A stretch of DNA of 64,000 nt from positions 33,320 to 97,319 of the IMG/VR virus record IMGVR_UViG_3300006752_006525, one strand, 5' to 3'. Positions 11,901-35,515 of the stretch are shown here, piece after piece; the stretch's first letter is position 1, and every line of letters begins with the position of its first letter. The notes under the pieces were generated by a model. It did not search any database. It had not been told where the DNA came from and saw only the letters and a list, made by a program, of their open reading frames with translations. The stretch is from a virus. Made by a program: the position numbers and the translations under genes.

Positions 11901-12618
11901 AGGTGCTCACAATGGTACAGTTGGTGCAACAACACCAGCAACTGGTGCATTTACTACAATTAATGCTTCAGGTACAATTACTGGTGATGTAACTGGTGAT
12001 TTAACTGGTGACGTAACTGGTGATGTAACAGGTGATGTAACTGGTGATTTAACTGGTGATGTTACAGGTAGCATCAGTGGTGCAACTGGTACGTTTACAG
12101 GCGCAGTAAGTTTTGGTACATTAACAGATTCAGGTGAGAGCATTGCAATCACTAAGTTTGTTGATGAAGCAGATGGCATTGGCAACAACGACAATGACAC
12201 TACTATTCCAACTTCAGCGGCAGTTGTTGATTATGTTGCAACAAATGGTGGTGACGGACTATTACTTAGACAAGCATTGACATCAGGTAGTGCAACTATC
12301 GATACAAGTGCTATGCCTAACATTAGTAGCAGAACTTACTATGCACAAAAAATTGTAATTAAGATTGGAACAGCATTTAGTGGCGGTTCTTTCAACCATA
12401 TTCTTGTTAAAGAGAATGGTGGTAGTGGAACAGTATTAGTAGCGGCTGATGACGCAGATGCGGCAACAGCAGGTACTTACATCATCGAGTTAGATGGTGA
12501 TGCGGCACTTACAAAGAATGCGGCTGTACAAGTACAGTTCATGCAGGCAGACAGTAGCACAGCGGCTACAACTACTGCAGGTTCAGGTACAATCTCAGTA
12601 CATTACAACTATGTCTAA
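8989..12618 (+). CDS. Repetitive tail fibre protein, 1,209 aa
   Basis: A Thr/Gly/Ser/Asp-rich fibre. It has three copies of the Y-G-S-x5-P-x-x-T-V-x-A-x-G-R-V/I-T motif also seen in the 1,275-aa fibre. Two arrays of the pentapeptide G-D-V-T-G lie near residues 399-432 and 998-1028. An internal duplication of about 105-115 residues is encoded by 9742-10058 and 11407-11748. A short segment around residue 710 (STLIPTQQSVKAYVD-type) is common in marine phage fibres. The C-terminal 120 residues are less repetitive and may form the tip. It ends at a strong terminator. Confidence 0.85.
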   Translation: MADIKNFGIKGLSSDVQLGKGGGKVKYDSSNNRFDLTQSDGSTLENLRLGAITAGAWTATAIGTQYGGLGLDGSSSTGIATFSSGTASIGTIDLSDSGLVDASSQLPVAQGGTGASTAGGARTNLGLGSIATQDSNNVAITGGALDSTVIGGSTAAAGSFTTINASGAITGNLTGTADDADGLSSAVTVGLSGDATGTATFQDAGDTATISTTLATVNSDVGSYGSSTAIPVLTVNAKGLVTAVSTASISTSWTISDGSNTSSIDGGDTLTVSGTANEVDVVVSGDSLTIGLPNDVTIGNNLTVTGSFLSDDITAAQVSVAGDAVITGNLTVQGTQTTVNSTTVETADAIFRVNSNGTTGTDVGFEANVGGTAKQIVYTGAGSKWSVGSETFVAATFEGDVTGDVTGDVTGNVTGNLTGDVTGDVTGDVTGNADTATTLANARTITIDGDVDATATAFDGSQNITLTTTLDNTGVTAASYGSASLVPVLTIDAKGRVTSASTAAITTSFTLAGDTGTQLVEGGDTATIAGGTNITTVASATDTLTVNLDPNISLTNVTTSGGIFTDDIYEQTTNAGITFGHDVNGGAATFSGTVTGGTLTDGTLSASSGAITGATTITASGAITGGSLTDGTATLSSGALTGATNGTFSGTVTGGTLTDGTLSASSGAITGATNITASGTVQYGSLSDGSITVTGFVDEDNMASDSATLIPTQQSVKAYVDAVATAADLDFQGDDATALSIDLDSEVLTIAGGTGLTTAGSGNTLTVNLDNTAVSAGSYGSSTAIPTFTVDAQGRITNASTAAISTSWTLSDGSNTQTIDGGDTLTVSGTTGEVDVAVSATDTLTIGLPSDVTIGNDLTVTNDLTVSGTLNSDDITSATVSVSGDAVISGNLTVNGTQTIVNSTTVQTEDAIFRTNSGGANTDAGFEANTASGVKQILYTAAGTEWDFGSENVKASTFEGNLTGDVTGDTTGAHNGTVGATTPATGAFTTINASGTITGDVTGDLTGDVTGDVTGDVTGDLTGDVTGSISGATGTFTGAVSFGTLTDSGESIAITKFVDEADGIGNNDNDTTIPTSAAVVDYVATNGGDGLLLRQALTSGSATIDTSAMPNISSRTYYAQKIVIKIGTAFSGGSFNHILVKENGGSGTVLVAADDADAATAGTYIIELDGDAALTKNAAVQVQFMQADSSTAATTTAGSGTISVHYNYV
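9742..10058 (+). repeat. Internal duplication in fibre gene, copy 1
   Basis: Encodes a block beginning SWTISDGSN and ending near AIFRVNSNG. It is closely matched by the second copy at 11407-11748. Confidence 0.7.
10183..10284 (+). repeat. GGTGATGTAACT tandem array encoding G-D-V-T-G
   Basis: Near-perfect tandem 12-15 base units encode repeated GDVTG/GNVTG/GNLTG. A second array lies at 11982-12070. Such arrays can change length by slippage or recombination. Confidence 0.75.
11407..11748 (+). repeat. Internal duplication in fibre gene, copy 2
   Basis: Encodes SWTLSDGSN to AIFRTNSGG, matching the block at 9742-10058 with a small insertion (an extra LTVTNDLTV-like segment). Confidence 0.7.
11982..12070 (+). 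repeat. Second G-D-V-T-G coding tandem array
   Basis: Same repeat type as 10183-10284, with alternating GDVTG and GDLTG units. Confidence 0.75.
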
Positions 12619-29958: not shown

Positions 29959-31163
29959 GAAAACTGTTTTATATGGGACTTGAGTCCTACGAGGCACGAT
30001 ATACACTTCAGTTACAAGACTGGAATGAACGAGTATTCAAACGCAGAGGCATTGACTATGAGATCATTACAGGTGAAGAGCTGGATAACAGCAAGGCTAT
30101 TGTAACAGGTAGTGTGTTAGATGCACATGGGCGTTCCTATTACAGTTTGTCTCAGACTATGAACCTTGTTCAAATGATGAAGAACGGCGAACTAACAAAC
30201 GAGGATGTTATCTTTTATGAAGATATGTTTACTCCTGGTATTGAATGTTTGCCTTACATCATGGATCAGTCACCGCCAGAATACAGACCCAAAGTGTATT
30301 TGCGTTTCCTTGCACAAACTACAGACCCAGATGACTTCCTTATTAGAGAAGGAATGTTCCACTGGATGCGTAAGTATGAGGAAATGGTAGATCACGTAGT
30401 AAGTGGTATTATGGTAGCGAATGAAGAGTTTGCCGCACACTTGCGTATTGCTGGATTGTTAGCACCTATTTATGTAACTGGCTTGCCATATGGTAAAGAA
30501 GAAGTACAAGGTAGGGTTGATCACAGCACACCATTGCATAAAAGAAAGAAGCGTGTAGCCTTTGCCGCACGTTGGGATGACGAGAAGCAACCTAACTTCT
30601 ATATGGATCTTGCAGAAGCATACTACAAGATTGATCCTGAAGTAGAGTTTGCAGTATTTTGCGGACACCCAGAACTAAAGAGCAACAGGCAAGAGTATGT
30701 TGATAGGGCATTAGCCTATGAAGGTGGTCACAACAGACTCGGTGATGCAAACTTCAAAGTCTACACAGGCTTAAAGAAGAATGACTACTATAATTTACTT
30801 GCAGACAGCCAGGTGCTGTTCAATTGTGCATTGCAGGATTGGACCAGCAACACTGTAAGTGAAGCGGATACCATGGGGGCATTAACACTGTTTCCTGCTT
30901 ACAGAAGTTTCCCAGAAGTATTTGCAAATAACCATAACCACTTGTATGCTCCTTGGAGTATTGATGATGCAGTAAACAAATTGCAGAATATGTTTGCCAA
31001 CATCGAAGCCAAAGACCTCAGTGGTTATAACTTAGGAAAAATATCAGACTACCAGAATGGTACTATCGATAGAACGTTAGATATTATGATGGGCAACGGA
31101 GAGCAATATGCAAGGAACGAATGGGACTTCCGTAGACATGTTGCTATAAACAAATATGAGTGA
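29955..31163 (+). CDS. Putative glycosyltransferase (GT-B type), 402 aa
   Basis: Two halves are visible. The N-terminal domain has an acidic/aromatic stretch and VVSGIMVANEEFA. In the C-terminal domain, KKRVAFAARWDDEKQPNFYMDLAEAY resembles the donor-domain opening of GT4-like enzymes. FAVFCGHPE and KVYTGLKKNDYYNLLADSQVLFNCALQDWTS then match the later GT-B pattern with a Glu-type motif (SEADTMGAL). It overlaps the GalE-like gene by eight bases, so it may use its sugar nucleotide. The acceptor (DNA base, fibre or host glycan) is unknown. Confidence 0.65.
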   Translation: MRKLFYMGLESYEARYTLQLQDWNERVFKRRGIDYEIITGEELDNSKAIVTGSVLDAHGRSYYSLSQTMNLVQMMKNGELTNEDVIFYEDMFTPGIECLPYIMDQSPPEYRPKVYLRFLAQTTDPDDFLIREGMFHWMRKYEEMVDHVVSGIMVANEEFAAHLRIAGLLAPIYVTGLPYGKEEVQGRVDHSTPLHKRKKRVAFAARWDDEKQPNFYMDLAEAYYKIDPEVEFAVFCGHPELKSNRQEYVDRALAYEGGHNRLGDANFKVYTGLKKNDYYNLLADSQVLFNCALQDWTSNTVSEADTMGALTLFPAYRSFPEVFANNHNHLYAPWSIDDAVNKLQNMFANIEAKDLSGYNLGKISDYQNGTIDRTLDIMMGNGEQYARNEWDFRRHVAINKYE

Positions 31164-32124
31164 AGCAAAAACAATCTTAGTAACAGGAGGTAGCGGATAC
31201 ATTGGTGGGCAAGTTTGTCGACTACTTGTAGATGCAGGCCACAATGTTATTAACGTAGACAGGCGTAAGAGCGACATACCAGGTGTTACACTATATCCTT
31301 TCGATATAGATAACCACCAACTAAAAGGTGTTATCCAACTTACAAAGCCAGATACCATTATGCACTTTGCCGCAGACCATGAAGTTGGTCGTAGCATGAG
31401 TGAACCAGGAGTGTTCTATTGGAACAACGTGGCTAACACTATTGCATTGTTAAATCATGCAGTAGAGGCTGGTGTACAGAACTTTATCTTTAGCAGTTCA
31501 AGTTCAGTGTATGGGGATATAGATAACTTCCCAACCACAGAAGACACACCAAAGTCACCTGTTAGTTCTTATGGAATGAGCAAAAGTATTATTGAAGATA
31601 TACTACCAGACTATAAACGAGCATACGGTCTTAACTATGCCGCTCTGAGGTACTTCAATGCCGCTGGTGCAAGTCCAGACAACACACATGGTTACATGCA
31701 AGAAAAGGCTTCTCACATTGTCCCAATCATTAGCAGAAAGATACTTGCTGGTGAAGTTGTAGAAGTGTTTGGTAACGACTATAACACAGAAGATGGTACA
31801 TGCGAACGTGACTACACTCACATGTTTGACATTGCCACAGCACATTTGGCCGCTGATTACTACCTGTCTGATGGTGGAGAAGGTGGCATATTTAACATTG
31901 GTGCAGGTAACAGCATGAGTGTTTTACAAGTAATAAATGCATTTGAAAGAGTGCTAGGCAAAACTGTACACTATGAATTTGTACCAAGACGTGATGGTGA
32001 TGCACCTAAGACGTTTGCAGACAACACAAAGGCACGTGAAGCATTTGGTTGGACTCCAATGTTTGGTTTAGATGAAATAGTTGAACATTCGTTTGCATGG
32101 GAAGAGAAGAACTTTAAGAAATGA
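31156..32124 (+). CDS. GalE-like NAD-dependent sugar-nucleotide epimerase, 322 aa
   Basis: TGGSGYIGGQV at residues 10-20 is the Rossmann G-x-x-G-x-x-G. FSSSSSVYG carries the catalytic Ser/Thr region and Y-G-M-S-K the Y-x3-K pair. LRYFNAAGASPD and RDYTHMFDIA are typical of UDP-glucose 4-epimerases. Length fits the family (about 330-340). It likely converts UDP-Glc/UDP-Gal or the N-acetyl forms for the upstream glycosyltransferase. Confidence 0.88.
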   Translation: MSEAKTILVTGGSGYIGGQVCRLLVDAGHNVINVDRRKSDIPGVTLYPFDIDNHQLKGVIQLTKPDTIMHFAADHEVGRSMSEPGVFYWNNVANTIALLNHAVEAGVQNFIFSSSSSVYGDIDNFPTTEDTPKSPVSSYGMSKSIIEDILPDYKRAYGLNYAALRYFNAAGASPDNTHGYMQEKASHIVPIISRKILAGEVVEVFGNDYNTEDGTCERDYTHMFDIATAHLAADYYLSDGGEGGIFNIGAGNSMSVLQVINAFERVLGKTVHYEFVPRRDGDAPKTFADNTKAREAFGWTPMFGLDEIVEHSFAWEEKNFKK

Positions 32125-32588
32125 ATAGTTACGAATATATAAGTCAGGACTTAATGAAAACGTATTACAAATCTGTAATACAAAAGATGGCACAAAGCAA
32201 TTACAAACCAGATTTGGTTATAGGGTTACTTCGAGGTGGTGCTGAGATGGCTGTGAATTTCAGTCACTACTTTGATGTACCTTGTGAAATTATCAAGTGG
32301 CAGTTACGTGACAGCAACAAAGATATTGATAAAGAATTACTTGCTGAAATTATAAAAAGCAATTCGCATTCTAATATTTTAGTTGTAGATGATTTGTGTG
32401 ACACAGGTGCGGCATTACAAGGCGTTGATGATGTCTTCTCTGATGCACACTTCTTAGGTGATGTTTCCTATGCTGTATGTATAGAAAACATTGATAATGA
32501 TTTCAACATTGATTTTACTGCTAGACAGATTAGTAGAAATGTTGATGAACAATGGTTTGTATTTCCATGTGAGAGTTGGTGGTTATGA
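32121..32588 (+). CDS. Phosphoribosyltransferase-like protein, 155 aa
   Basis: NILVVDDLCDTGAAL near residues 88-102 is the PRPP-binding loop of type I phosphoribosyltransferases, and VIGLLRGGAEMAVNFSHYF fits the PPi loop. It resembles purine (xanthine/hypoxanthine) enzymes. It overlaps galE by four bases. Near deazaguanine genes, it might recycle purine bases released by base exchange; that is inference. Confidence 0.8.
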   Translation: MNSYEYISQDLMKTYYKSVIQKMAQSNYKPDLVIGLLRGGAEMAVNFSHYFDVPCEIIKWQLRDSNKDIDKELLAEIIKSNSHSNILVVDDLCDTGAALQGVDDVFSDAHFLGDVSYAVCIENIDNDFNIDFTARQISRNVDEQWFVFPCESWWL

Positions 32589-32848: not shown

Positions 32849-33538
32849 ATGAAAAAACATGAAGAAGTAGCCAAAAGGTTACAAGAAAGTAACACTCGTT
32901 ACTGGGCCGGAGATAACATCTCACAACATCTTGAAGAAGGTGACAAACAAACATTAATAGAAGAAGCCACAGTAGCATTTGAAAATGTGCTAGACACGTT
33001 GGTTATCGATAGACACAATGACCCTAACAGCATGGGCACAGGCAAACGTCTTGCTAAAATGTATATCAATGAACTAATGGCAGGACGTTATGATCCAATA
33101 CCACCTGCAACTGCTTTCCCTAACGACAGTGCTGATAGGTATGAAGGCATGTTGGTTGTGCGTAGTGAGCTCACAAGTATGTGTTCACATCATCACCAGA
33201 TCGTTAAAGGTGTTGCATACATTGGTATCATTGCCAGTGAGAAACTAATTGGACTAAGCAAGTACACAAGGATTGCACAGTGGTGTGCAGAGCGTGGTAC
33301 ATTGCAAGAAGAACTTGCTAACGACATCGTTAGAGAGATTCAGAAAGCAACAGGCACAGAGAACTTGGGTGTATACATTCAAGCCACACACGGTTGTGTA
33401 GAGAACAGGGGTGTTAAAGCACACAGTAGTCTCACACAAACAACTGTATTAAAAGGTGCATTCAAAGATGACCCAGCAACTAAGAAAGAGTTTATGGACA
33501 ATATTAAACTACAACAATCATATGCGTGTGATAGATAA
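32849..33538 (+). CDS. folE: GTP cyclohydrolase I, 229 aa
   Basis: TSMCSHHHQIVKG near residues 109-121 gives the zinc Cys and the catalytic His pair; THGCVENRGV near 180 gives the second zinc Cys. SEKLIGLSKYTRIAQWCAERGTLQE is the conserved L-S-K-x-x-R segment. Length fits FolE. It makes dihydroneopterin triphosphate, the first intermediate of folate and of 7-deazaguanines. With QueE 1.2 kb downstream on the same transcript, the deazaguanine role is likely. Confidence 0.93.
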   Translation: MKKHEEVAKRLQESNTRYWAGDNISQHLEEGDKQTLIEEATVAFENVLDTLVIDRHNDPNSMGTGKRLAKMYINELMAGRYDPIPPATAFPNDSADRYEGMLVVRSELTSMCSHHHQIVKGVAYIGIIASEKLIGLSKYTRIAQWCAERGTLQEELANDIVREIQKATGTENLGVYIQATHGCVENRGVKAHSSLTQTTVLKGAFKDDPATKKEFMDNIKLQQSYACDR

Positions 33539-34071
33539 TGTCGATTAGTGCTAGAGGACCAAGAAACATATTAGTGATTGATCGTAATTGCGTTCCTATC
33601 AATGAAATTATTAATCATGTAGTTCATCACAGAGACATTGATAATGTAATGTCAAGATACAGTGTTCATGAGAGCGAAGTATTTGATGCTATCAGTTGCT
33701 GGTGTGATGTGCGTGAACCCACTGAGAATGATTTTATCAAGTTCAAGACAGAGATGAATGATACTGGTATACTTGATGTTGAGACAACAGGTATCAGTGA
33801 CTGGATGATGCTGAGTTGTATATCATTTGGTAAGGATTATCAACCTAATGAATCAGACCTATCATACCTTTATGGTTGGGGACTAGGTGAACTGTTGATA
33901 CAATCTATGACTGATATCAAAAACGATACCAAGGACTACGAAGCAAGTGTATTGCATGAAGCAATACTGTTAGCATTTGAAAGCAGTTACAAAAAAGTAA
34001 CACCAGAGAATGCTGAAGAAATGATTTACAGTATTGAATTAGAAAGAAGCAGAGATGAGGTAAGACATTGA
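33538..34071 (+). CDS. Unknown protein between folE and queE, 177 aa
   Basis: ATG 33538 overlaps the folE stop by one base and the gene overlaps queE by four. Acidic, mixed alpha/beta, with two Cys in SCWCDVREP near residue 58 and a Trp/Gly-rich middle. No family recognised. Its position inside the folE-queE operon makes it a candidate pathway partner. Confidence 0.7.
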   Translation: MSISARGPRNILVIDRNCVPINEIINHVVHHRDIDNVMSRYSVHESEVFDAISCWCDVREPTENDFIKFKTEMNDTGILDVETTGISDWMMLSCISFGKDYQPNESDLSYLYGWGLGELLIQSMTDIKNDTKDYEASVLHEAILLAFESSYKKVTPENAEEMIYSIELERSRDEVRH

Positions 34072-34964
34072 GCAACGTACCTATTAAATATTCTGAGACA
34101 TTTTACTCAGCACAAGGTGAAGGCCAGTACATAGGCATACCCAGTTTGTGGATGCGATTCTTTTTGTGTAACTTACAATGTAATGGCTTTGGACAAGCAG
34201 ATCCTACTAATCCTGATACATATGAATTGCCATTTGAGGAGATTGATATATCTGATATAACAGATGTACGTGATCTTCCTGTGTTCGATAAAGGCTGTGA
34301 TAGTTCGTACACATGGAGTAGAAAGTACAGGCATCTTATTACTAACAGAAGTATCAAAGAAGGAGTTGATGAGCTCACAGAACTACTGCCACATGGCAAG
34401 TTCCAGAACCCTGTTACCAAACAATGGGTACACATGGTGTTTACTGGTGGTGAGCCATTACTCCATCCTACACAACCTGGTATCATTGGCGTACTAAATG
34501 AATTCAAAGAGCGTGATAACTTCCCTAACAATGTCACAGTTGAAACAAATGGTACACGTGAACTAAGTGATGATTTGTTTTACTACATACAAAACAACTT
34601 CACAGATGTAACTGGCAGAGAATGGTTTTGGTCGTTGAGTCCTAAGTTATGGAGTACTGCTGGAGAAAAGCATAAACGTGCTATTAAGCCTGAGTTTGTT
34701 GCTAAGTATGCAAAGTGTACACCACACGGTCAGTTAAAGTTTGTAGTAAACGGAAGTGAGGAGAGTTGGCGTGAAGTCGAAGAGAACACAAAAGCATTTC
34801 GTGATGCTGGTTGCGATTACCCTGTTTGGATTATGGGGGTCGGTGGCACCTTGGAAGGACTCAAGGTCACTGAAGCAGACATTGCCGATGAGGCCATCGC
34901 CAGAGGATATTATTACTCCAGCAGGGTCCACGTTCATATATACGGCAATGCTATAGGCAAGTAA
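34068..34964 (+). CDS. queE: QueE-like radical SAM 7-carboxy-7-deazaguanine synthase, 298 aa
   Basis: TTG 34068 overlaps the previous stop (TTGA). YSETFYSAQGEGQYIGIPSL at residues 8-27 is the QueE substrate loop. C34-x3-C38 begins the iron-sulfur motif, but the third Cys (normally three residues on) is replaced by Phe. C77-DSSYTW, which looks like the usual C-D-T-x-Y-T-W, follows after a 38-residue insert. VFTGGEPLLHP and VTVETNGT are the SAM-binding and substrate motifs. QueE ring-contracts carboxy-tetrahydropterin to CDG. All needed elements appear present, with a rearranged cluster loop. Confidence 0.9.
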   Translation: MSNVPIKYSETFYSAQGEGQYIGIPSLWMRFFLCNLQCNGFGQADPTNPDTYELPFEEIDISDITDVRDLPVFDKGCDSSYTWSRKYRHLITNRSIKEGVDELTELLPHGKFQNPVTKQWVHMVFTGGEPLLHPTQPGIIGVLNEFKERDNFPNNVTVETNGTRELSDDLFYYIQNNFTDVTGREWFWSLSPKLWSTAGEKHKRAIKPEFVAKYAKCTPHGQLKFVVNGSEESWREVEENTKAFRDAGCDYPVWIMGVGGTLEGLKVTEADIADEAIARGYYYSSRVHVHIYGNAIGK

Positions 34965-35515
34965 TGTTTAGATATATTGAGAATGTATTTGATGAAACAA
35001 TACTAAATCGCTTTTACAATAAGTATTTTCAAATACTTGATAGCGATCTCAATAGCCACGACATTTGGGCAGACAGTGCAACAAAGAATAAAACACTGCC
35101 CGAATGTTTTACAAGCAACCTAACAACACAAGAACGTTATGAACTCATAGAGTATTTGTACTCTACACCAACTTCACCTTTCCACCAAGACAACCGAATA
35201 CGTAATTGCGATGTAGCAATACAAAAATTGTTGCCAAATTGTAGCATACCAAAACACACAGACACTTGTATAGGCAGTATGACGGTGTTCATGAACAAAG
35301 AGTATGACACTTCTAATGGCGGACAGTTTGTTTGGTATGACCCGGAAGTAGAAAAAGTGTCATACTCTGTGATACCAAAATGGAACTGTGCCGTGTGGAG
35401 TTATAACAGCGGTATAGAGCATGAGGTTACCACAGTAAACCAACACAATAGAATCACAATGCAGTTTTTTATATGGGACAATAAAAAGGATGCGAAAGTC
35501 CAAGTCAAAAGTTGA
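34964..35515 (+). CDS. 2OG-Fe(II) oxygenase (prolyl hydroxylase-like), 183 aa
   Basis: PKHTDTCIGSMTVFMN near residue 98 holds the H-x-D iron ligands and GGQFVWYDP follows as in P4H-type oxygenases. GIEHEVTTVNQHNRITMQFFIW near residue 150 supplies the distal His and the 2OG-binding Arg. It starts one base inside the queE stop, so it belongs to the folE operon. It might oxidise the modified base or a protein; the substrate is unknown. Confidence 0.78.
   Translation: MFRYIENVFDETILNRFYNKYFQILDSDLNSHDIWADSATKNKTLPECFTSNLTTQERYELIEYLYSTPTSPFHQDNRIRNCDVAIQKLLPNCSIPKHTDTCIGSMTVFMNKEYDTSNGGQFVWYDPEVEKVSYSVIPKWNCAVWSYNSGIEHEVTTVNQHNRITMQFFIWDNKKDAKVQVKS

Follow-up and report, generated by a model that had tools for sequence, protein, structure and literature searches.

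A phage QueE-like radical SAM protein with a conserved 38-residue spacer between its second and third predicted cluster cysteines

We describe a queE-like gene in a 64,000-nucleotide stretch of viral DNA (positions 33,320 to 97,319 of the IMG/VR record IMGVR_UViG_3300006752_006525; here called the window), the product of which carries 38 residues between the second and third cysteine of its radical SAM motif. Such split QueEs make up a large, mostly marine phage subfamily and are common in marine phages. The window protein is very probably a QueE-type radical SAM synthase of 7-carboxy-7-deazaguanine (CDG) that would hold its cluster on C34, C38, and C77, carry a looped extension, and supply CDG for the 7-deazaguanine modification of phage DNA. 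The sequence comparisons and the predicted structure make a working CDG synthase with an extended cluster loop the most likely reading. The three-cysteine motif of a radical SAM enzyme can, it appears, open between its second and third ligands and accommodate a conserved 38-residue loop with none of the ligands lost.

The gene (34068 to 34964, plus strand) encodes 298 amino acids, was assigned by its match to PHROG 2076 and by its AlphaFold2 fold, and starts with a TTG codon overlapping the stop of the preceding open reading frame (ORF); its frame is open. The protein contains five cysteines, C34, C38, C77, C217, and C249. The segment C34-x3-C38 (34167 to 34181, plus strand; codons read directly at 34167 to 34169 and 34179 to 34181), which holds predicted cluster ligands 1 and 2, is followed by N-G-F, with Phe41, three positions past C38, occupying the place of the third cysteine of the canonical CX3CX2C motif. 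C77 (codon 34296 to 34298) lies 39 positions past C38 and opens the segment C77-DSSYTW (34296 to 34316, plus strand), which would comprise the third ligand and the motif after it. The intervening spacer, residues 39 to 76 (34182 to 34295, plus strand), is thus 38 residues long, 36 above the canonical two, and the window copy has neither Cys nor His in it. The sequence TGGEP, which we take to be the SAM-binding motif of radical SAM enzymes, occupies residues 126 to 130 (34443 to 34457, plus strand). The coordinates and spacing reported in an earlier note on this DNA, C34-x3-C38-x38-C77-DSSYTW with Phe at residue 41, proved correct.

A full-length match was obtained to the PHROG 2076 profile "QueE-like radical SAM domain" (E value of 1.8e-49; residues 6 to 296 on positions 13 to 245 of 247). 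Curated bacterial QueE models matched the window protein in short pieces only and far under their cut-offs, the NCBIfam QueE equivalogs giving 31.4, 30.7, 26.6, 25.0, and 21.7 bits against required scores of 200 to 300, and the match to Pfam Radical_SAM fell below the gathering score. Several NCBIfam QueE models nevertheless matched every one of the 81 proteins in a diverse alignment of the family, with a best E value of 3.5e-22. The spacing CX3CX38C corresponds to neither CX3CX2C nor CX14CX2C, patterns that describe the known QueE subtypes and not the whole family, and the window protein is therefore filed as QueE-like, in a new spacing subtype outside both. Since the cysteine motif is opened, motif-based rules and curated bacterial models miss these enzymes.

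In the 81 diverse sequences, with identity down to about 30%, C34, C38, C77, and D78 turned out to be invariant (81/81), as were TGGEP, E159, N161, S191, K193, K224, R286, and G297. The profile made from these sequences found the solved QueEs among the PDB sequences and matched the enzymes of Escherichia coli (6nhl) and Bacillus subtilis (5tgs) in two pieces, with the insert skipped. The first piece, with C34-x3-C38 in the region of the first two cluster cysteines, stops just past the second of them, and the second piece places CDSSYTW on CDTKHTW of E. coli and CDSAFTW of B. subtilis. The three predicted cluster cysteines thereby stand, by invariance and by profile alignment, at positions homologous to those of QueE, and the identification of C77 as the homologue of the third cluster cysteine is well supported by these alignments. 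The statement of the earlier note that all three cysteines are kept, with the insert lying inside the cluster-binding motif, is borne out by the family profile and the 81-row invariance, which put the insert between predicted ligands 2 and 3.

Two ways in which the split could mislead have to be weighed against this reading. One is that C77 is not a ligand and that the cluster sits on C34, C38, and another residue or cysteine. Phe41 at the canonical third-cysteine position would agree with it, as would a gap of 38 residues, which is well outside the spacings described for QueEs. We looked for an alternative cysteine completing the site, as had been proposed, and none was conserved: position 217 is Cys in 2 and position 249 in 20 of the 81 sequences, which rules out both, and leaves C34, C38, and C77 as the only invariant cysteines. 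A cluster held by the insert itself is unlikely as well, with 68 of the 75 long inserts devoid of Cys. Moreover, the invariant C77-D78 pair aligns with the CD(T/S) motif of canonical QueEs, and the graded spacers of 2, 6, 17, 23, and 27 to 44 residues all run into this same CD motif. A cluster formed without C77 is thus very improbable, and C77 is the favored third ligand because the profile aligns it to the third cysteine of solved QueEs and no other cysteine is conserved. The other alternative, an assembly error, a frameshift repair, an intein remnant, or a decaying gene, has practically no likelihood: nothing was found in its favor, the split recurs in isolated phages and at about 180 loci, the frame is open with an insert dN/dS of 0.08, and 38 residues are far below the size of an intein, for which they are far too short. 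The homologues and the dN/dS rule out error, intein, and decay alike.

The AlphaFold2 model, run on the 81-row alignment, had a mean pLDDT of 95.6 and a pTM of 0.93, and the blocks of the insert, with pLDDT of 90 to 96, showed little regular secondary structure. In a second look with VIA-align, the closest solved fold was B. subtilis QueE (5tgs/5th5; Z 22.8, 2.4 Å over 225 residues); the top three of this list were all QueEs (5th5/5tgs, 6nhl, and 4njg; Z 17 to 23), with pyruvate formate-lyase activase and viperin ranking behind them. The best match among viral models was a Stenotrophomonas phage QueE (TM 0.87). The model thus supports a QueE fold overall. Given the 2.4 Å fit of the core to B. 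subtilis QueE, the insert would seem to loop out of a core that is otherwise normal, and the reshaping of the cluster loop expected in the earlier note may not extend to the cluster itself; the same fit makes a placement of C77 far from the cluster site unlikely. The B. subtilis enzyme (5tgs, 5th5), a CX3CX2C protein of 22% identity, has CDSAFTW after its third cysteine, much like the CDSSYTW of the window, but two residues in place of 38 between Cys2 and Cys3. The precedent for a long QueE cluster loop is the CX14CX2C enzyme of Burkholderia multivorans (4njg; fold match Z 17.0), in which an enlarged cluster loop goes with a normal cluster (PMC4389238); its extra residues lie between Cys1 and Cys2, whereas those of the window protein lie between Cys2 and Cys3, and the NCBIfam model of this type, TIGR04508, gave 30.7 bits against a cut-off of 240. 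A wide gap within the cysteine motif is found also in the radical SAM enzyme PhnJ, with CX2CX21CX5C (PMC4389238), but PhnJ belongs to an unrelated family and has its motif near the C terminus; the window protein, with its QueE fold, has it close to the N terminus.

An alignment with other phage QueEs had been suggested earlier, and it showed the split to be fixed in a large subfamily, PHROG 2076, so that the window phage is not a singleton. Homologues are encoded at 178 loci from public collections (the loci overlap between searches and are not all independent), and tblastn gave 179 phage records at a coverage of at least 80%. A motif count found exactly 38 spacer residues in 151 of 190 matched proteins, which, with the same overlap, are not all independent. 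The split is present in Vibrio phages KVP40, nt-1, 6E35.1a, 2.275.O, Bakedbeans, and D479, Aeromonas phage Ahp1, Pseudomonas phages pf16, PA5oct, and Pori-4, Stenotrophomonas phage Moby, Xanthomonas phage PhiXhv-12, and nearly every IMG/VR homologue found. When prokaryotes were scanned with each species represented by one genome, 20 contigs were returned, nearly all from metagenome bins and many of them short; these are probably mostly binned phage DNA. The spacer has the canonical two residues in actinophages, JenP1, and Knedl, 6 in the Cellulophaga type, 17 in Campylobacter phage CPt10, 23 in HCTV-1, and between 27 and 44 in the main clade, where 38 is by far the commonest. When the spacer was left out of tree building, all the proteins with spacers of 27 to 44 residues fell into one clade (support 98/99), which takes in PA5oct and nearly all the IMG/VR homologues, those with 6 to 23 into a neighboring group (support 87/89), and the canonical phage QueEs outside both; CPt10, PhiXhv-12, Pori-4, and Moby sit on long branches, and their placement is uncertain. 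This arrangement fits a gap between Cys2 and Cys3 that opened once, early on, and then lengthened. The QueEs of Vibrio phages nt-1, KVP40, and 6E35.1a (PHROG 2076; 40 to 43% identity) share the clade of the window protein and have a spacer of 40, while those of Cellulophaga phage phi47:1 and halovirus HCTV-1, with enlarged spacers of 6 and 23 running into CDS as in the window, belong to the neighboring group and not to the long-spacer clade. A text search of open papers found no description of a Cys2-Cys3 split, and CX3CX27-44C is apparently an undescribed spacing variant of QueE, widespread in phages. The natural spacer series of 2, 6, 17 to 30, and 34 to 44 residues makes the role of the QueE cluster loop testable.

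We then asked how the insert compares with the rest of the protein. Column entropy was no higher in the insert than elsewhere (1.60 versus 1.79 bits), its GFGQ, L70-P71 (in the conserved LPV), and G76 are near-invariant, and dN/dS, pooled over 561 close and nonindependent pairs, came to 0.082 for the insert against 0.085 for the remaining residues. Purifying selection thus acts on the insert as it does on the rest of the protein, of which the insert is a maintained part. It is acidic, with a mean net charge of -4.9, and usually lacks Cys, which makes a cluster of its own unlikely. Flavodoxins and ferredoxins are usually acidic as well, so docking of an electron donor by simple attraction of opposite charges is disfavored.

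In the mechanism that we propose, C34, C38, and C77 would bind a [4Fe-4S] cluster in the way usual for QueE, and the conserved 38-residue loop, in place of the two residues between Cys2 and Cys3, would leave the cluster site and come back to it. With FolE and QueD, of the phage or of the host, CDG could then be made for the 7-deazaguanine modification of phage DNA. We infer ligation by C77, enzymatic activity, and a loop that would tune the access of reductant or solvent to the cluster. As to how the loop acts, one may guess at donor docking or, with about equal weight, at cluster shielding, and a role in stability may also be named. Shielding is worth considering because the clusters of radical SAM enzymes have been described as exposed to solvent and destroyed by air (PMC9576991). 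The loop may also be noncatalytic altogether, by analogy with the variable region E45-W67 of E. coli QueE, which lies past the cluster motif and is needed for a second function of that enzyme in cell division (PMC11142719).

GTP cyclohydrolase I (FolE) catalyzes the first step of the 7-deazaguanine pathway, and its gene (32849 to 33538, plus strand; Pfam PF01227, E value of 8e-37; PHROG 2197) lies two genes upstream of the queE-like gene and was found in 22 of the 22 records searched. Between the two is an ORF of 177 amino acids (33538 to 34071, plus strand) that overlaps the queE start, has a homologue at 35 of the 178 loci, and matched no family in Pfam, NCBIfam, or PHROGs. Upstream of folE are a galE-like epimerase gene and a phosphoribosyltransferase-domain gene (31156 to 32588 in the window); since their homologues occur near queE at 77 and 102 of the 178 loci, the neighborhood is conserved. 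Immediately 3' of queE is a 2OG-Fe(II) oxygenase-domain gene (34964 to 35515; Pfam PF13640), with a homologue at 7 of the 178 loci only.

Further along the pathway, QueD is present in most large relatives and was not found in the 97-kb record of the window, which is a fragment. A clear QueC is encoded by KVP40, nt-1, 6E35.1a, 1.081.O, 2.275.O, and pf16; searches with PF06508 and TIGR00364 found none in the window's own clade, the window's record being a fragment. DpdA, a divergent protein, was likewise not found in this fragment with PF01702, nt-1 DpdA2-type, and Cellulophaga phi47:1 probes. In this respect the window's record and its near relatives differ from nt-1, KVP40, and 6E35.1a, which have a clear QueC and a DpdA2-type gene. 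FolE and QueE without detectable QueC or DpdA were seen in the window's record (G000) and in relatives G001, G002, G009 to G011, and G013, most of these relatives having QueD, which is absent from G000 and G002.

The pathway has been described as complete in the KVP40-like group. The DNA of nt-1 contains dPreQ0 at about 0.1% of G, plus dADG and dG+ (PMC6884629), and that of 6E35.1a has 15% of dG as dPreQ1 (PMC12028318). Both phages carry the split QueE, and of the evidence available, their modified bases speak most clearly for a functional split enzyme, although host QueE could contribute. The QueE of phage 9g complements an E. coli queE deletion (PMC6884629); JenP1, a relative of 9g, has the canonical spacing.

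It is conceivable, though unlikely, that fold and cluster were kept while CDG synthesis was lost, the loop and other changes having turned the protein to another substrate or product within the nucleotide metabolism of the phage. Scores far below all the QueE equivalog cut-offs would suit such a loss, as would the failure to find QueC, or DpdA with three kinds of probe, in the window's clade, and the replacement of Pro257, present in 55 of the 81 sequences, by Gly in the window protein and 23 others. Against it stand the constant presence of folE, with QueD in most relatives, the complete pathway of the KVP40-like relatives with the same split, and E18, R30, E159, N161, S191, K193, and K224, which a 20-sequence alignment showed to be common to canonical and split QueEs. 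A CDG synthase thus remains the preferred function of the window protein. A further reading, in which the loop is a phage-evolved module of cluster control (donor choice or oxygen shielding) and the pathway of the window's clade stops at CDG or one of its derivatives and not at preQ0, is a rather doubtful proposal.

Some minor observations may be added. The replacements Pro257 to Gly (24/81) and Gln265 to Leu (29/81), found in the window protein and part of its clade, could mark a change near the substrate end. A weak QueC match in the window's record, at 12388, was rejected: this ORF of 314 amino acids with SGGIDS reads by eye like an NAD synthetase. Adjoining it is an ORF of 372 amino acids that, again by eye, reads like IMP dehydrogenase/GMP reductase; the two ORFs together lie at about 11.2 to 13.3 kb of the 97-kb record, outside the window. 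Pseudomonas phage PA5oct (MK797984) has two PTPS/QueD-family genes close together, at 169215 and 171534, with FolE just upstream.
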